From positions 1,240,001 to 1,304,000 of the forward strand of contig AP019005.1 in NCBI GenBank assembly GCA_003945285.1: 64,000 nt of DNA, given 5' to 3'. Of the stretch, positions 54,628 through 63,196 are shown one piece after another; positions within the stretch are counted from its first letter, which is position 1; the number at the start of each line of letters is the position of its first letter. A program made the translations under genes and the position numbers. The notes below the pieces were generated by a model. It searched no databases. It was not told where the DNA came from and saw only the letters and a list, made by a program, of their open reading frames with translations. The stretch is from Hydrogenimonas sp. GTDB lineage: Bacteria; Campylobacterota; Campylobacteria; Campylobacterales; Hydrogenimonadaceae.

Positions 54628-55455
54628 TTATTCGTTGATATGCGCTATCTTCTCCCCGAACCTGACATGAGTCCTGGCGTTAGTGCGCACATCCATGAGC
54701 CCCGGCTCCGCAAAAAGAAGCACCGTCGATCCCATCATGAACATACCGAGCAGATCGCCTTTGTAAATCCAGACAGGCTTTTTGTCGTAGCGGTAGAGTG
54801 TGGGTTCGTACCTGTCGGCGTTGGTCTGTATGCGGTGGTCGAAGGCTATTGTCATCCTGCCGACGTTCAAGGCTCCGACCAGCACTATGAAGATACGGCC
54901 GCCATTTTCGGTAAAGCACTCCAGAATCACCCTCTCATTCTCGACAAAAAGCTCCTTTTGACGCTTCAAAGAGGGGAAATTCACCGGGTAGAGCTTCCCG
55001 GGCCGGTGAAGAATGGAGGCTACCCGAAGCTTGTAGGGCATATGGTATCGGTGGTAATCTTTGGGGGAGAGATAGAGGTTTATGTATGTTCCGTCATACA
55101 GGGCTTTCGCCTCCTTGCCATACTGGAACGTCAGAAGGTCGTCTATGCTGTACTCCATACCCTTTATCTGCATCGAAACATCTTTTTTGAGCCTTCCGCA
55201 CTCGGTTACGAAGGCATCCACCGGAGAGATCAGCGCCCCCGCTCTCCGGTCGATCGGGCGCTCCTTTTTGAGCTCTCTCGTAAAAAGACTGTTGAGTGTA
55301 GGGTATGTAGACGGTGGGGCGAATTCGCTCATATCGAGCCCCAGCAGGTTTACGTAGGCATGGTTTATGAACGACTGGATTTTCGAAGGGAACTCATGGT
55401 CGGCGAACCTTCCGAAGAGTTGTGAAACGGTATTTGTAATATGCTTTCTGGCCAA
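54628..55455 (-). CDS. psd: Phosphatidylserine decarboxylase
   Basis: A 275-residue proenzyme. The self-cleavage motif GST is in 'LLGMFMMGSTVLLFAE' near residue 242, where the serine becomes the pyruvoyl group. 'SPKDYHRYHMPY' holds the conserved His, and 'LISPVDAFVTECGRL' holds the Asp of the catalytic triad. It makes phosphatidylethanolamine. It follows the ferritin-like gene by one base, on the same strand. Confidence 0.94.
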   Translation of the reverse strand: MARKHITNTVSQLFGRFADHEFPSKIQSFINHAYVNLLGLDMSEFAPPSTYPTLNSLFTRELKKERPIDRRAGALISPVDAFVTECGRLKKDVSMQIKGMEYSIDDLLTFQYGKEAKALYDGTYINLYLSPKDYHRYHMPYKLRVASILHRPGKLYPVNFPSLKRQKELFVENERVILECFTENGGRIFIVLVGALNVGRMTIAFDHRIQTNADRYEPTLYRYDKKPVWIYKGDLLGMFMMGSTVLLFAEPGLMDVRTNARTHVRFGEKIAHINE

Positions 55456-55456
55456 A

Positions 55457-56278
55457 TCAATCTATCCTCTCGAGCGCCTCTTTCATAAGCGCAATGTGGT
55501 AATCTTCCTGAAAATTTATAAAATCGAAAAAAGAGCTGAGCTCCTCATCTTTGACGGCCTCCGCAAGAGCCCTGCACTGCTCTTTAGCTCCGAGCTCCTC
55601 CTCTATTCCGTCCAAAAGGAACTTTTTGAGCGACTCGAATCGGTAGATCTCCTGCGTAACCATCCGCGGAACCGTCAAGATTCCCATCTTTGCCATCAGA
55701 CGTGCGAAAGAGTTGAGGTGAAACTTCGACTCGTCGATGAGTATCTGAAATATCTCCGCCACCCTCTTGTCGTCCACCTGCGTCTGGGCATACGAGTAGA
55801 TGATGATAAGCTCATACTCCTTGTAGCTCTCCTCGAAGAGAAACTTCACAAGAGCCTCCAGAGACTCTTTGTCGAGCTCCCTGCCTTCGAGTTTCAGCGA
55901 CTTGTCAAAGGCGTTCACTTCGCCCTCTCTTTCACTCTCGCGCGCCAAAACCGAACGTATGTAGCCGAGGTCGCTTATCATCCTCTCCGCCAGCGGATCG
56001 CCGCTTCTGCTCAACTGCGACTCTATGCGCCCAAGTGCTTCGTCGCAAAAGAGAGCCGCTTCACCTTCGGTTTTGAAACCGAGCTCTATACCGGGCCTCT
56101 CATAACTATACTCTATACCCTTCTTTACATAGACGGACTCTATGAAGCGCAGGTGCCTGTACAGAATCTCCGAAAAGTCGTAGAGCCTCTCCCCAAACTC
56201 TCTGTCGTTAACTGCAAACGACGAAAAGAGCAGCCTGAGCCACCCTTCGTGCACCGATGTAAAAAGCCTTTTAGCCAT
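55457..56278 (-). CDS. Ferritin-like (rubrerythrin-type) di-iron helical protein
   Basis: About 273 residues from ATG 56278 (site AAGGAGG), overlapping the scaffold gene by 8 nt. The C-terminal half (about 145-270) is a four-helix bundle with two ExxH motifs, ESKFH and EDYH, and further Glu residues in EESYKEYE. These are the ligands expected of a ferritin-like di-iron site. The N-terminal half (helical, about 1-140) is unrecognised. Its coupling to an IscU-like gene suggests iron storage or supply for cluster assembly, or repair of damaged clusters. The family is inferred from motif spacing alone. Confidence 0.65.
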   Translation of the reverse strand: MAKRLFTSVHEGWLRLLFSSFAVNDREFGERLYDFSEILYRHLRFIESVYVKKGIEYSYERPGIELGFKTEGEAALFCDEALGRIESQLSRSGDPLAERMISDLGYIRSVLARESEREGEVNAFDKSLKLEGRELDKESLEALVKFLFEESYKEYELIIIYSYAQTQVDDKRVAEIFQILIDESKFHLNSFARLMAKMGILTVPRMVTQEIYRFESLKKFLLDGIEEELGAKEQCRALAEAVKDEELSSFFDFINFQEDYHIALMKEALERID

Positions 56279-56732
56279 CTGTATCCCCCTCCTTTTCATC
56301 CTCTTGTACCGCACACGCCTTCGTTATCATCCTGGTCGGCACCGGAGCCTCCGGGTCGCTCTTTTTCGCTTCGAAGTGATCAAGAGCCGCCAAAAAGGCT
56401 TCGGCCACCATCTCCGAACAGGCCGCCTCTTCCGGCGGCATACGGTCGAGCTTCCCGAGCATGATGGAAGTAAGCTCCCTACCCTCCCCGATGGAGACAC
56501 CCTTTACCGTTTCCGTAAAGATGGAACCCGCTATCACGGTAGTCATACACGCTTTCGCCTGAAACTTTATATCTTCTATTTTACCGTCCGATATCTTCAG
56601 ATAGATTATGACCATCTCCCCGTTTTGCGGGTTTTTGCCTATACCTACAGCATCGGCATCTTCAAGCTTGCCGTAGTTTCGCGGGTTCATCATATGATCA
56701 AGGGTTGTATCGTAAAGCTCTTTTTCATCCAC
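56271..56732 (-). CDS. IscU/NifU-N-like Fe-S scaffold protein lacking the first cysteine
   Basis: A 153-residue protein with the IscU/NifU N-terminal fold: 'LYDTTLDHMMNPRNYGKLEDADAVG', a loop NPQNGE, then 'DIKFQAKACMTTVIAGSIFTE' and 'PPEEAACSEMVAEAFLAALDH'. Canonical IscU has three cluster cysteines. Here the first, normally in NPxCGD, is Asn and the following Asp is Glu, while the second and third are kept. The protein may be a carrier or a sulfur/selenium handling variant rather than a standard scaffold. There is no NifU C-terminal domain and no iscS nearby. Confidence 0.8.
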   Translation of the reverse strand: MDEKELYDTTLDHMMNPRNYGKLEDADAVGIGKNPQNGEMVIIYLKISDGKIEDIKFQAKACMTTVIAGSIFTETVKGVSIGEGRELTSIMLGKLDRMPPEEAACSEMVAEAFLAALDHFEAKKSDPEAPVPTRMITKACAVQEDEKEGDTDG

Positions 56733-56986
56733 CGTCGTACTCTCTTTTTAGATACGCCATTATATCGCTTTTGACGGGCCAAGGGAAATTGGGGGATTAG
56801 TGTACGCCAACTAAAGAAAAGAGATACCTGTTTTGACTTTAGGCAATCTAGAAGATATAATAATTCACTATTATAAAATCGTTTGAAGAGATGTCGCCTG
56901 TGCTACGTTTAGTGACCTGTAATGCCGCCTTAAGGTGTAGCAGATTTTTAAACTGCGGTTGAAAACCGGATTCGAAGGAACGTCGA

Positions 56987-57277
56987 ATGACACGAGAAAA
57001 AATCATTGATTTTTTACGAAAGAACAAACAAAACTTTCATGAGAAGTATCAGATTTCCAAAATCGCTCTTTTGGGATCGTACGCCAGAGGCGACAATCGA
57101 GAGGAGAGCGATATAGATATTGCCATAGAGACACCTTTGACAGACTATTTCAAACTATACGATTTCAAAGAGGAACTGGAGAGCTATTTTCACACAAGAG
57201 TGGATGTGGTCAGGTTGCGTGAAAAGATGAACCGGGCTTTAAAAAAAAGGATATCCAAGGAGGGTATCTATGTATGA
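56987..57277 (+). CDS. MNT-type nucleotidyltransferase antitoxin (MntA-like)
   Basis: A 96-residue minimal nucleotidyltransferase with the active-site motif GSYARGDNREESDIDIAI (about 30-47). Such proteins AMPylate and silence HepT RNase toxins, which are normally encoded next door. Here AGGAGG and a HepT-like start follow directly (TGTATGA overlap), but that gene is truncated. The catalytic Gly-Ser and both aspartates are intact, so this gene may still be functional. Confidence 0.85.
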   Translation: MTREKIIDFLRKNKQNFHEKYQISKIALLGSYARGDNREESDIDIAIETPLTDYFKLYDFKEELESYFHTRVDVVRLREKMNRALKKRISKEGIYV

Positions 57278-57685: not shown

Positions 57686-59407
57686 ATGAAAGCGGATCTA
57701 ATCGGTCGAAGAGGGTTTTTGCAGTCCGTTGCGGCGGCCACCCTGCTTCTGGGTTCACACAAAAGGCTCTTTGCCGAAGGTGTCAAAAGAAGTTTTGGGG
57801 CCAGAAAGCCGGAGGAGGTGCTGGAGGGTGAGGAGTTTCATCTTACTCTCGAAGAGACTGTCGTCAACATCACCGGTACGCCAAAGGTGGCCACCACCAT
57901 AAACGGTTCACTTCCCGGTCCTACACTGAAGTGGAGAGAAGGCGACGAGGTTACGATTCATGTAACCAACAAGATGCCCGAAAGCGCCTCGATCCACTGG
58001 CACGGTATCATTCTTCCATTCAACATGGACGGAGTACCGGGCATCAGCTACCCGGGTATCGCACCCGGTGAGACCTTTACATACCGCTTCAAGGTCAATC
58101 AGAGCGGGACATACTGGTACCATTCGCACACCCCTTTTCACGAGCAGACCGGTATGCACGGCTCCATTATAATAGAGCCTAGAGAGAGTGAGCCGTTCGA
58201 GTACGACCGGGACTATATCGTCTCGCTTTCCGACTGGAGCGACGAAAAACCGTCCGCTATTTTCAGAAAGCTGAAAATCTTCAGCGACTACTACAACTTC
58301 AACCAGCGAACCGTCGGCGACTTTTTCGAAGAGGTAAAAGAGAAAGGGTTTGTCGAAGCGTTCAAAGCGCGCAAAATGTGGAACGAAATGCGCATGAGCG
58401 ACCGCGATCTTTCGGATGTTACAGCCTACACATACACCTATCTGATGAACGGCATGACCGACTCCCAGGACTGGAGAGGGCTCTTTAAAAAAGGCGAAAA
58501 GGTGAGGCTGAGGCTCATTAACGAATCGGCCATGACGAACTTCGATATTCGCATACCCGGTCTCAAAATGGAGGTCGTCGCCGCCGACGGCAACTACGTC
58601 AAGCCGGTGGAGGTAGACGAGATACGAATCGGTGTGGCGGAGACCTACGACGTCATCGTAAAGCCCGACGACAGAGCCTACTGTATCTTCGCGCAGAGCA
58701 TAGAGCGCTCCGGTTTCGTAGGCGGCACGCTCGCACCGGATAGCACCTCGAAAGCGGTGCGTCCGCCGATGGACAAACCGCAGCCCCTGACGATGGCCGA
58801 CATGGGCATGGGAGCCTACAGCGAGAAACCGAAAAAGATGAATATGGCACATATGAAGATGACAACGGAACGAAGCGAGCCGAAATACCCGATAACCCCG
58901 CTTCCCATACGGCGGAGCGGACCGGCCGTGACGATGTGGGCGAAAGATCCGCGCTACAGGCTCGACGACCCGGGGGTGGGGCTCAGAGGCAACGGCCGAA
59001 AAGTGCTTACATACGCAGACCTGAGGAGCCTACGTTCGACCGCCGACGACCCGCAGCCTGACAGGGAGATAGTGCTTCACCTCACTGGTAACATGGAGCG
59101 CTATATCTGGTCCATCAACGGCATCACCTACGATGAGTCGGAACCTCTGAAGTTCAATTACGGAGAGAGACTGCGCATAACTTTCGTAAACGATACGATG
59201 ATGAACCACCCGATGCACCTGCACGGCATGTGGAGCGACCTGGAGACCGGAGACGATGCCCATCTTGTAAGAAAACATACGCTGCTGGTACAACCCGGCA
59301 GCAAACTGAGCTGCCGCGTAACCGTAGACGCAAAAGGAGCGTGGGCGTTTCACTGCCACCTGCTCTACCATATGCTCGGAATGTTCAGAAAAGTGGAGGT
59401 GGTATGA
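57686..59407 (+). CDS. copA: Multicopper oxidase CopA (copper resistance)
   Basis: A 573-residue protein. The Tat signal RRGFLQS (8-14) and hydrophobic stretch show export in folded form. Three cupredoxin domains carry the four copper motifs HWHG, HSH (WYHSHTPFHEQ), HPMHLHG and HCHLLYHMLGM. A Met-rich insert (MADMGMGAY, MNMAHMKM, about 370-395) before the last domain is typical of CopA/CueO copper-tolerance oxidases. It oxidises Cu(I) in the periplasm. The ribosome binding site AGAGGAG follows TATAAATTATAA at 57662-57673. copB follows with overlapping stop and start. Confidence 0.93.
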   Translation: MKADLIGRRGFLQSVAAATLLLGSHKRLFAEGVKRSFGARKPEEVLEGEEFHLTLEETVVNITGTPKVATTINGSLPGPTLKWREGDEVTIHVTNKMPESASIHWHGIILPFNMDGVPGISYPGIAPGETFTYRFKVNQSGTYWYHSHTPFHEQTGMHGSIIIEPRESEPFEYDRDYIVSLSDWSDEKPSAIFRKLKIFSDYYNFNQRTVGDFFEEVKEKGFVEAFKARKMWNEMRMSDRDLSDVTAYTYTYLMNGMTDSQDWRGLFKKGEKVRLRLINESAMTNFDIRIPGLKMEVVAADGNYVKPVEVDEIRIGVAETYDVIVKPDDRAYCIFAQSIERSGFVGGTLAPDSTSKAVRPPMDKPQPLTMADMGMGAYSEKPKKMNMAHMKMTTERSEPKYPITPLPIRRSGPAVTMWAKDPRYRLDDPGVGLRGNGRKVLTYADLRSLRSTADDPQPDREIVLHLTGNMERYIWSINGITYDESEPLKFNYGERLRITFVNDTMMNHPMHLHGMWSDLETGDDAHLVRKHTLLVQPGSKLSCRVTVDAKGAWAFHCHLLYHMLGMFRKVEVV

Positions 59408-60075
59408 TGAAAAAGTTATTGACAATCCTGCTTGCGGCAGGCTCTTTGATGGCATCCGGTGCGGGCGACCCGCTCAGGGCTACTCTGCTGATGGACAGAC
59501 TCGAAGTGCAGTCGTCGGACGGAAACCCGCTGGTGTGGGACACCTCCGGCTATATAGGAAAAGATTACGACAAGCTCTACTTCTACAGCGAGGGTTCAAG
59601 AACTTCCGATGAGAGCGAAAGCGAAAACGAACTGCTCTACAGTCGTGCGGTAACGCCTTTTTGGGATCTGCAGGCCGGTGTCGAGTATGACAGGGCCGGA
59701 AGCCTGAACAGAACGTGGGGTGTTGTGGCGCTGCAGGGGCTGGCCCCCTACTTCATAGATACGAGAGCACGCCTCAAAATCGGCAACGGAGCCGTCGGGG
59801 CAAATTTCGATTTCGAGTACGAAGCGCTAATAACCCAGAGGCTCATACTGACTCCCCGCGTAGAGATAGAGGCCTATAGCAAAGAGGTTCCGCAGCTGCA
59901 CAAAGGGGGAGGCATATCGTCCGCAGCGGTCGGACTGAGGCTGAGATACGAGATAAGAAGAGAGTTTGCACCATACATAGGGGTGACATACTCCAACAGC
60001 TTCGGAAAAACCGCCTCGAAATATGGCGGTACAGAAGATACAGCTTTTGTGGGAGGGGTGAGATTCTGGTTTTAA
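59407..60075 (+). CDS. copB: Copper resistance outer membrane protein CopB
   Basis: About 222 residues from ATG 59407; ATG 59404 is also possible, and GGAGG lies upstream of both. A signal peptide (1-17) is followed by a barrel domain with CopB phrasing: 'YIGKDYDKLYFYSEGS', 'ELLYSRAVTPFWDLQAGVEYD', 'GLAPYFIDTRA' and 'LTPRVEIEAY'. It ends in a barrel terminus (GGVRFWF). The Met-rich N-terminal region of Pseudomonas CopB is absent, so this is the short form. The stop codon lies within the target duplication of a family C element. Confidence 0.9.
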   Translation: MKKLLTILLAAGSLMASGAGDPLRATLLMDRLEVQSSDGNPLVWDTSGYIGKDYDKLYFYSEGSRTSDESESENELLYSRAVTPFWDLQAGVEYDRAGSLNRTWGVVALQGLAPYFIDTRARLKIGNGAVGANFDFEYEALITQRLILTPRVEIEAYSKEVPQLHKGGGISSAAVGLRLRYEIRREFAPYIGVTYSNSFGKTASKYGGTEDTAFVGGVRFWF

Positions 60076-60895: not shown

Positions 60896-62734
60896 TCAAA
60901 AACGGAAACCCAACTTCAGATACCATTTACCCAGCCCGTCAATATTACTATAATACAAAGACACATCTCTACGTTTTCCTATCTGTCCCCTGTATTCTAT
61001 CTCAAAAGCCGTCTGCCAAATACTTGCATTAAGTCTATTCTCTATACCACCTTCAACACGGATTTTTCCAATCTCGAAAGGAATAACTGCACCTATCTTC
61101 GGCATGATTCTATATCTTGGATAAAGAGTATGTAAAGATAAATCAGCCATTACGAAAACTTTACCTACACCCGCTCTTTTTGACAATCCAGCCCCGAAAA
61201 GTCCGCTATGATCATATTTACCCAAATAACCGAAACGAAAATCCTTGTTTGTACGAAGTTGTAAATTCCAGGAAGCAGCTTTAAAACCGCTATCCGGCAG
61301 AGCATTCACGGTAAATTTTCTAATAGACAGCCATTCAATTCTATCAATAAAGCAACCATGTTTAAACCCGACAGACGCATCAAAAATCTTTAGTTCGTCA
61401 CCATCCATAGAGTTTTGTCCGGTCGATTCTTGCGAATATAGTGTATATGAAACTGAAGGATAGAGATCTTTTGTACTATTATATCCTGTACCTACTGCTA
61501 TTATCATAGGAAGCTCACCGGAAGCCGGTGACGGCTTGGCAGGTATATCAACTTGTGCAGGAGCAGAAGCAGGCATTGATATTCTAGTGGACAAAGCTAT
61601 GCGTTCAAGCTCTCTGGTAGCATTAGAAGGATTGGGCATCTCCTTAATCTTTCTATACTCAGAATAAGACAATAGAAAGTTAGCCAACTTGATATCATGC
61701 AGATTTTTGATTTTTCCTGTTTTAATTATATGCCGTGCCTTATTTTTGGATGTTTTATCAAGTTTTTCATATTCAGCTACAAGCCTCCTCTCACTGGAAG
61801 GAATGTATTGTACATGTGAGACCAGCTTTTTCCCATATTCGCTACGACTCCGACAATCCAACTCTTCAAGACGATTAAACAGTTCAAGAGGTGCAAACCA
61901 TAGTCTTGACCTGGAAGTAAGATCATCTTTTATACCAACTTCTGCAACTCTTCCAATCTCATAAGCACAGTTTCTATTAAAAAAATAGTACCTCTTTTTT
62001 TTACCTACTATTTCCCAAATATGCAGAATGAGCATCTCCAGTTCATCCCGTCCAAGATTCAACCTGTAATCCCACATATCACGAAACTCGGTATGGGCAT
62101 AGGTCATATCCTGTACATAAAAGTACCTATCGGAATATCCTGCAGTATAGCCGCCTGTTATGCCATTAAATATATAAGCTGCTACCGATTCGTCTTTGGG
62201 AATCATAGCACCGTAATTAATACTTGTATCGAACAGGCCGTTTTGCTCACCGGTATTGATTTTCATATATGAATGCCCAAATGTTGATGCAGGATTACCC
62301 ATATAGCCGCTCACAAGTATTAGACTAACTGAGTCAGCCTTAGCATACAATCCCCATTTCTTTAGCTTTTCACAAGCTTGAGGTATCTTTTCGAAATCTG
62401 GAAGGCTTATATGTCTTGAGAGCCATAAGTAACGGGCAGGGAAACGGCATCTCGGTGAAGAATCCGGATCTTTCCCGAAAGGTTTGAAGTATGCTTTTAT
62501 TAAAGCATCAAGTTCTTTTTTCGGGTCATGTTTGCCTTCTGGAGAGAGAAAAAAATCATTGTCTATTACTTCACTTTTACCCTCTTTAAAGTGTAAAAGT
62601 CTGAGCCACTGAGGATTGTGTGAAAGTATGGAGGTATCAACTTCAGCACCCATCGAGTATGCGACAGATGCAAAAAATGAAACTGAAAAAATAAAAGTCC
62701 CCGCAAGACGGAGAAATCCGTCGCGGAGTATCAA
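60896..62734 (-). CDS. DUF4105-domain outer-membrane-associated protein
   Basis: A 612-residue protein with a signal peptide (about 1-28). The DUF4105 domain (about 85-300) has NlpC/P60-like landmarks: 'GNPASTFGHSYMKI', 'FVQDMTYAHTEFRDMWDYRLN' pattern (visible as YVQDMTYAHTEFRD) and 'YFFNRNCAYEIGRVAE' with a Cys/His pair. The C-terminal 200 residues look beta-rich and end LGFRF, an outer membrane barrel-like end. Function is unknown; a peptidase-like or lipid-modifying role is speculative. It follows the DUF3015 gene directly. The sequence is AT-richer than its surroundings. Confidence 0.8.
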   Translation of the reverse strand: MILRDGFLRLAGTFIFSVSFFASVAYSMGAEVDTSILSHNPQWLRLLHFKEGKSEVIDNDFFLSPEGKHDPKKELDALIKAYFKPFGKDPDSSPRCRFPARYLWLSRHISLPDFEKIPQACEKLKKWGLYAKADSVSLILVSGYMGNPASTFGHSYMKINTGEQNGLFDTSINYGAMIPKDESVAAYIFNGITGGYTAGYSDRYFYVQDMTYAHTEFRDMWDYRLNLGRDELEMLILHIWEIVGKKKRYYFFNRNCAYEIGRVAEVGIKDDLTSRSRLWFAPLELFNRLEELDCRSRSEYGKKLVSHVQYIPSSERRLVAEYEKLDKTSKNKARHIIKTGKIKNLHDIKLANFLLSYSEYRKIKEMPNPSNATRELERIALSTRISMPASAPAQVDIPAKPSPASGELPMIIAVGTGYNSTKDLYPSVSYTLYSQESTGQNSMDGDELKIFDASVGFKHGCFIDRIEWLSIRKFTVNALPDSGFKAASWNLQLRTNKDFRFGYLGKYDHSGLFGAGLSKRAGVGKVFVMADLSLHTLYPRYRIMPKIGAVIPFEIGKIRVEGGIENRLNASIWQTAFEIEYRGQIGKRRDVSLYYSNIDGLGKWYLKLGFRF

Positions 62735-63196
62735 TTAAACACCCTGGAAAACAATGTTGTAGAGTTTTTCAACCTTTTCCTTGCGATTCATGGATGTATA
62801 ATCTGGCTGTGCAACCAACCTACCAAACTCGGTACGGATTCTTTTTTTCTCAGATACTTCTGTAGCACCGGCCAGAGAAAGCATAGTGTCAAGATATTTT
62901 CCCTCTCCCATAGCAAGCTCTTTCGAGAGTTTGTCATAGCTTTTCATTATAAAAGCGGCTGTCTTCTCTTTTCCGCCCCTACATGTATCCGGAGAGGAAA
63001 CATTTGAACTAATTGCAGTGGTACCAAGATCCCATGTAACATTGGTCACAGCTGCAACGGCCTCATTATGCGGTGCAATCATAGCACCCAGTCCGCACTC
63101 GGTGTAGATATCTGCAAAATCTCTCGCTTGAGCACTGATTCCTGTTATCATCAGAATCGCGAGACCTACACCTGCTACTTTTACTTTTCCAACCAA
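62735..63196 (-). CDS. DUF3015 family periplasmic protein
   Basis: A 153-residue protein with a signal peptide (1-23, ISAQA-R). The conserved opening 'DIYTECGLGAMIAPHN' contains one of two cysteines; the second is in 'VSSPDTCRGGKEKTAAFI'. These two residues and length fit DUF3015, a family often encoded next to DUF4105 genes, as here (stop and next start abut). Function is unknown. Transcription probably starts in the AT-rich gap 63197-63474, which holds no other gene. Confidence 0.82.
   Translation of the reverse strand: MVGKVKVAGVGLAILMITGISAQARDFADIYTECGLGAMIAPHNEAVAAVTNVTWDLGTTAISSNVSSPDTCRGGKEKTAAFIMKSYDKLSKELAMGEGKYLDTMLSLAGATEVSEKKRIRTEFGRLVAQPDYTSMNRKEKVEKLYNIVFQGV

Follow-up and report, generated by a model that had tools for sequence, protein, structure and literature searches.

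The locus described here raises the question of what function is served by a protein with the fold of the iron–sulfur (Fe–S) cluster scaffold IscU, from which the first of the three ligand cysteines is missing, when its gene overlaps that of a helical protein resembling the di-iron ferritins. The two genes, referred to below as U and F, lie within a window of 64 000 nt, i.e. the whole stretch of DNA analysed (C1:1240001–1304000 of G000, a Hydrogenimonas-type genome assembled as a single contig of 2.19 Mb), and the coordinates of all features are collected in Table 1. An initial annotation, made from the DNA letters, had drawn attention to the motif NPQNGE in U where IscU has NPxCGD, to the retention of the other two cysteines (Cys62 and Cys105) and to an 8 nt overlap of the two genes (ATGGCTAA), and each of these was found as described. 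That annotation proved largely right, with the corrections given below. The overlap suggests that translation of the two genes is coupled. A −10-like element, GATATAAT, was recognized by eye upstream of U in 10 of the 14 distinct upstream sequences from the genus, and TATAAT in 13 of the 14. The psd gene next to F is probably a passenger. On the other side, the U–F locus is adjoined by a copper-resistance-type pair of genes encoding a multicopper oxidase and CopB, and a gene upstream of U on the opposite strand encodes an MntA-like nucleotidyltransferase (type VII antitoxin family), whose score was 57.7 bits where the cut-off is 60.

Table 1. Coordinates of the features of the U–F locus (numbered from the first letter of the window) and of IscU-fold paralogs (numbered within their own loci)
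Feature	Coordinates	Strand	Remarks
U	56271–56732	−	IscU/NifU_N-fold protein, 153 aa, GTG start; Asn37 at the Cys1 position, Glu39 for Asp39; Cys62, Cys105 and Cys140 conserved
NPQNGE motif of U	56616–56633	−	Residues 34–39; replaces IscU NPxCGD
U end/F start overlap	56271–56278	−	8 nt, ATGGCTAA, common to both genes
F	55457–56278	−	Tandem ferritin-like protein (predicted), 273 aa, ATG start (56278); C-terminal bundle residues E154, E183/S184/H187, E228, E258-x-x-H261, C235
psd	54628–55455	−	Phosphatidylserine decarboxylase; directly downstream of F
U upstream region	56733–56882	−	Holds GATATAAT, −10-like element
MntA-like nucleotidyltransferase	56987–57277	+	Upstream of U, opposite strand
Multicopper oxidase	57686–59407	+	Adjoins the U–F locus
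CopB	59395–60075	+	Follows the multicopper oxidase gene
Lnb_N/DUF7843 protein	60896–62734	−	
DUF3015 protein	62735–63196	−	Directly before the Lnb_N/DUF7843 protein gene
Type B paralog, L022	6465–7058	−	G000:C1 about 1042464–1043057
Type B paralog, L078	5668–6204		
Type B paralog, L079	5573–6115		
Type C paralog with adjoining nrd-like genes, L080	3222–6973		
Type C paralog with adjoining nrd-like genes, L077	4422–8392		

The only Pfam profile matched by U was NifU_N (PF01592; 77.4 bits, cut-off 22, with E values up to 1 considered), and U fell below the cut-offs of all four NCBIfam equivalogs (TIGR03419, TIGR01999, TIGR01994 and TIGR02000; 92.1, 58.7, 54.7 and 52.3 bits against 187.9, 192.4, 92.5 and 273.3). 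Its predicted model, built from a 28-row alignment (pLDDT 90.6, falling below 50 for residues 143–153), matched Thermus thermophilus IscU (2qq4; Z 17.0, rmsd 1.8, 118 aligned) and 4eb5 (Z 17.0). The active site of Escherichia coli IscU consists of C37, C63 and C106 together with D39, and H105 has been proposed as a competitor for the fourth position (PMC13423590, partial text). U shares with IscU the fold, the NifU_N match and cysteines equivalent to C63 and C106, but differs from it in having Asn, Thr or Ser in place of C37, Glu in place of D39, Ala, Ile, Val or Ser in place of H105 and an additional cysteine, Cys140, in the tail. Among 76 relatives from the named loci (gaps being left out of the denominators), position 37 was occupied by Asn in 58, Thr in 13 and Ser in two, with a gap in three, and never by Cys; E39 was present in 73/73 alignable relatives and C62, C105 and C140 each in 75/75; and the residue at the position of IscU His105 was Ala in 61, Ile in seven, Val in six and Ser in one, with one gap. 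The same four residues, E39, C62, C105 and C140, were among those invariant in the 28 aligned U members. Because they are invariant wherever they can be aligned, the site looks to have been remodelled under selection and not to be decaying, and their retention over large divergence led us to reject the idea that U is a decayed pseudogene. Conservation of Cys140 also means that U cannot be called a two-cysteine IscU, as had been proposed. In a short and weak alignment, C140 falls on VCECARV, a stretch of canonical campylobacterial NifU that comes after its N-terminal domain and which we take to open the [2Fe–2S] domain of that protein, so the tail of U may be a remnant of the NifU middle domain. 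A site that has been rebuilt and then kept suggests that U probably binds something.

F had been read as a di-iron ferritin-like protein on the basis of two ExxH motifs. Exactly one is present, E258DYH261, the other being E183SKFH187, i.e. ExxxH; moreover, at least one ExxH occurred in 46 % of shuffled versions of F, so that the motif alone is no evidence and was dropped as such, and conservation and fold were considered instead. The predicted model of F, built from a 37-row alignment (pLDDT 94.8, pTM 0.92), has eight main helices arranged as two four-helix bundles in tandem (residues 2–116 and 137–272); in the C-terminal bundle every helix carries invariant acids or histidines. Structure prediction, which had been suggested as a check, thus returned ferritin-like bundles of high model confidence. 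The C-terminal half matched the di-iron protein 2qqy (Z 14.6, rmsd 2.5, 133 aligned), nigerythrin (Z 14.2) and mini-bacterioferritin (Z 14.2), values of about 14–15 being reachable by chance among helical bundles, and a Foldseek search with F gave no match at E <0.001. The assignment of F to the ferritin-like bundles therefore rests also on 9viw (‘Bacterioferritin’, 306 aa), which among proteins of solved structure matches the sequence of F most strongly (E 5.7e-22 at profile positions 9–270) and has the motifs E-S-x-x-H and Q-E-x-Y-H of F in its own C-terminal half. Since the homology extends across nearly all of F, the tandem architecture is not unique to F. The two proteins differ in the N-terminal half, where 9viw has QEMRH and the matching Glu is found in seven of the 37 F members. 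In this half of F, H42, R99 and D103 are invariant, the Glu three residues before H42 is present in only 7/37, and we read the half as what may be a decaying copy.

Only the C-terminal bundle appears to keep a near-complete set of di-iron ligands. E154, S184, H187, E228, E258 and H261 are invariant in 37/37 members, position 183 is Glu in 31 and Asp in six, and position 235 is Cys in 35. In a weak profile alignment (probability 3.8 %, E 0.011) to a bacterioferritin encoded in locus L071, for which we assumed the ligand residues of bacterioferritins in general, E154, H187, E228, E258 and H261 align to E17, H54, E93, E126 and H129, and S184 aligns to the Glu of its ExxH motif, with E/D183 just before. 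As the helix-B Glu is thereby replaced by Ser184, the metal site of F may be atypical or mononuclear; the description of F as helical and ferritin-like is upheld by the predicted bundles. F resembles the ferritin-like superfamily (bacterioferritin, rubrerythrin/nigerythrin) in its four-helix bundle and in the five residues that are identical, in this weak alignment, at the ligand positions of bacterioferritin, but differs in the tandem bundles, the Ser at the helix-B Glu and the lack of rubredoxin-type cysteines. Its only cysteines are Cys78 and Cys235, so there is no rubredoxin-type FeCys4 site. F itself (P0002) fell below the Pfam cut-offs for Rubrerythrin (15.7 against 22.8) and Ferritin (14.6 against 24.5), which were matched at E 0.01 by 16 and seven of the 37 members, and below that of the NCBIfam encapsulin cargo ferritin EncB (24.5 bits against 90); no hemerythrin or ScdA_N match was found in F (E up to 1) or in the 37 members (E up to 0.01). 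The parts of the pair belong to known superfamilies. U lacks features that define the IscU scaffold family, and F falls short, in score or in defining domain, of each named ferritin-like subfamily with which it was compared. A tblastn search for F on plasmids gave no match at E 0.001.

We surveyed 398 genomes of the order and found F in 146 and U-like proteins in at least 151 (E 1e-5). U lay directly upstream of F, on the same strand and contig, in at least 116 of the 146 F-bearing genomes, a count that includes partial matches (e.g. in G005, G257 and G306); the matched stretches were −14 to +188 nt apart, and within −15 to +20 nt in at least 97 genomes. The co-conservation on which the initial annotation had made its proposal depend was borne out, the linkage spanning ten family labels of the order. 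Among 80 named loci, picked by closeness to F, U adjoined F in 76 (73 scored by script, at −51 to +4 nt as measured from longest-ORF starts, and three recovered by eye from the script's misses); the remaining four were L088, L149, L161 and L163, and in two of these, L149 and L161, the locus is close to the start of its contig. The nearest named relative among the best 80 of 280 was a Hydrogenimonas metagenome-assembled genome (F 90 % identical), and 79 of these 80 were titled as Campylobacterota taxa and one as ‘bacterium’, the scan patterns having come from Campylobacterota.

Among the matches listed, 30 of the 146 F-bearing genomes had no neighbouring U. F was distant in 25 of them, namely 23 genomes of family labels f15 and f12 (31–37 % identical) and G052 and G110 (25–28 %); the other five, again among the matches listed, were G341, G331, G184, G325 and G240. 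Searching with a U profile located U in two of these five, as a fragment adjoining F in G184 and on a different contig in G331. When ten of the 25 distant genomes were searched in the same way, seven gave matches only in open frames of 322–333 residues, which were canonical NifU in the four that were read out, and three gave none; of the eight f15/f12 genomes among these, five yielded nothing beyond a match the size of canonical NifU, and the other three were those without any match. Judged from its gene content, f15 is probably Nautiliaceae-like. By eye, F in the f15 loci L067, L069, L070 and L074, where U is absent, stands tail to tail with an oorDABC-like 2-oxoglutarate:acceptor oxidoreductase operon and has pdxA-like and kdsB-like genes on its other side. 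U without F was found in G221, G329, G359 and four f9 genomes, and a search with an F profile of 13 genomes having U-like proteins but no F recovered only a 39-residue piece, at a contig edge in G275. The link between U and F is therefore strong and wide but not obligate: the linkage itself stands, whereas ‘dedicated’, the word used of F in the initial annotation, is too strong, as each gene also occurs without the other. Many free-living relatives of Campylobacter carry the pair.

Canonical NifU is encoded by a gene separate from U and was intact (match >150 bits) in 15/18 genomes of the genus, the others being G000, G006 and G007. In G000, the genome of the window, a 12 kb region (L021, G000:C1:48000–60000) contains ORFs, canonical nifS and nifU among them, that are broken into short frames; such fragmentation throughout the region points to poor sequence there. 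The suggestion that U might be the sole scaffold, as nifU of G000 reads as broken, was rejected in view of the 15 genomes with intact NifU. One member of the genus, G001, has equally scoring matches to canonical NifU at two places separated by about 111 kb (L179, C1:1196560; L184, C1:1307577), and these could reflect either a true gene duplication or an artefact of assembly. The coexistence of U with intact NifU, together with the loss of Cys37, the replacement of His105 and the change of Asp39 to Glu, supports the earlier view of U as something other than a standard assembly scaffold.

In a quick tree of 67 rows, with long branches and no outgroup from outside the phylum, nine canonical NifU rows were split from the 58 others, none of which has Cys37, by a branch with support of 100. 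Two rows of U without F and two further kinds of IscU-fold paralog, which we term type B (three rows) and type C (two rows), fell among the 51 rows of F-linked U, and a single clade of F-linked U was rejected (AU test, p 0.0201) because type B and U without F nest inside it. Type B proteins, of 178–197 aa, lack C37, C62 and C105 but retain a tail cysteine; NifU_N matches in their low score range (34–48 bits) were found in 8/18 genus genomes. The type B gene of the window's genome is convergent with a hemerythrin-PAS gene, and the notion that these constitute a second such pair is unsupported, given this orientation and the different neighbours in L078 and L079. Type C proteins also lack a Cys at position 37, and their genes are flanked by an nrdD-like gene and a small gene of 109–113 aa, with an nrdG-like radical SAM activase gene on the other side; these nrd names were assigned by eye from sequence, the surroundings having the look of, presumably, an anaerobic ribonucleotide reductase operon.

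Our working hypothesis, to which we give somewhat less than an even chance, is that U and F form a pair for the maintenance of iron or Fe–S clusters and not a scaffold for their de novo assembly. The two proteins would be co-produced and would most probably act jointly, with U holding ferrous iron or a [2Fe–2S] cluster through E39, C62, C105 and C140 and F carrying a di-iron site in its C-terminal bundle. F would capture Fe(II), consuming O2 or peroxide in the process. It would then pass iron on to U or recover it from damaged clusters, allowing the ordinary NifS/NifU system to keep or rebuild clusters. What the sequences show are the genes, the predicted folds, the invariant residues, the linkage and the coexistence with NifU; metal binding, contact between U and F and the direction of iron flow are inferred. 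The considerations that weigh most in favour of such a pair are the rebuilt and retained site of U, the ferritin-like partner with what appears to be a near-complete set of di-iron ligands and the results of two profile searches across the genus: ScdA_N, the domain by which the repair protein RIC was sought, was found in none of the 18 genomes, a search that any RIC without ScdA_N would escape, and frataxin gave no match in the same 18, the E. coli controls being positive in both cases. Against the hypothesis count the genomes in which either gene stands apart from the other, the Ser at the helix-B Glu position of F and the lack of a Foldseek match for F at E <0.001.

Next in our ranking, and fairly unlikely, is the possibility that the specific task of U is to deliver electrons to F, in which case a [2Fe–2S] cluster on the three cysteines and the glutamate would reduce F, itself a rubrerythrin- or bacterioferritin-like oxidase or peroxidase, or an iron-releasing protein, without a rubredoxin domain. 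Rubredoxin reduces rubrerythrin and Bfd reduces bacterioferritin, and the absence from F of an FeCys4 site of its own, its structural matches to nigerythrin and other ferritin-like folds, the invariance of the three cysteines and the glutamate of U and the alignment, albeit short and weak, of the tail cysteine to VCECARV of NifU would all be in keeping with such a role. However, whole family labels, f15 and f12, have F with no U beside it, and IscU-type clusters are known for labile transfer and not as redox carriers, a property that also counts against this proposal. Nor was any redox partner seen by eye among the recurrent neighbours, where we noted psd and an HAD-phosphatase-like gene (named by eye; near F in 26/80 named loci). 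Bacterioferritin and Bfd are likewise a ferritin-like protein paired with a small Fe–S-type protein, but U differs from Bfd in having no Fer2_BFD match (E up to 1) and in having the IscU fold.

We consider it less probable again that the two proteins act separately, U being a sensor or regulatory paralog of IscU and F an independent protein, and that their operon with psd has been kept by inheritance and co-expression. The presence of psd, which has no obvious link to either protein, downstream of F in 47/80 named loci would fit this explanation, as would the occurrence of each gene without the other, but the association of U with F (76/80 named loci; at least 116 of the 146 genomes) extends over ten family labels of the order and is commoner than that of F with psd. 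Lowest in the ranking, and improbable in our judgement, is that U is a specialized assembly scaffold for one client or condition, with F supplying the iron for a cluster on C62, C105 and C140, the last replacing C37: its three cysteines and one acid equal the count in IscU, and both the fold and the equivalent of IscU C106 are intact, but NifU is already available in most of the genus, inspection by eye of the 16 neighbour clusters that recur most often turned up no additional cysteine desulfurase, the His preceding the third cysteine has been replaced and the type B paralogs nested among U lack three of the site cysteines.

The iron and cluster maintenance function that we favour for U and F can be compared with two systems in which a di-iron protein is associated with an Fe–S scaffold. 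A precedent that favours it is YtfE of E. coli, for which donation of iron to an IscU by a di-iron protein is documented: YtfE interacts with both IscU and IscS and stimulates the formation of clusters on IscU, and the authors suggest that bacterioferritins might donate iron in a similar way (PMC8117158, partial text). As with RIC/YtfE, a helical protein of di-iron type is linked to an IscU-type protein in U–F, but F matches neither hemerythrin nor ScdA_N and U is not the canonical scaffold. In Campylobacter jejuni, according to the partial text of PMC4257069, there is no ytfE, the di-iron hemerythrin HerA is encoded upstream of iscS-nifU and transcribed separately from it, and the role of HerA towards the Fe–S enzymes Por and Oor is protection from oxygen and not repair. 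Here too, and within the same phylum, the gene for a di-iron protein adjoins that for an Fe–S scaffold; the differences are that HerA is a hemerythrin and not ferritin-like and that the scaffold is NifU. That HerA should protect and not repair may count against a maintenance function for U–F. In Helicobacter pylori the NIF system is the sole one relied upon (PMC8144621, partial text).

Among the papers listed by searches of open-access PMC full text, none was seen to report the U–F pair, as judged by title or the start of the abstract. More doubtful than maintenance as such, though not so unlikely as the electron-carrier alternative, is the broader proposal that U–F is an undescribed Fe–S maintenance module of free-living Campylobacterota, in which one ligand has moved from the C37 loop to the tail cysteine, Cys140, giving a stable rather than a transient metal centre, and the tandem ferritin-like partner, translationally coupled to U and with an unusual E-S-x-x-H site, trades iron or electrons with it, so that the pair would fill the niche of frataxin and RIC. 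Under the same proposal the type B and type C proteins, the one without C37, C62 and C105 and the other in an apparent anaerobic ribonucleotide reductase operon, would be further paralogs repurposed from the same group. The identity of the iron donor to Fe–S scaffolds is a long-standing question, and these bacteria would provide a compact test case for it: in a genus in whose 18 genomes neither frataxin nor a ScdA_N-type RIC was detected, a conserved two-gene unit joins an IscU-fold protein to a ferritin-like one that is likely to have a di-iron site. U may also represent an IscU fold in which the metal ligands were remade and have been strictly conserved since, seemingly freed from standard assembly.
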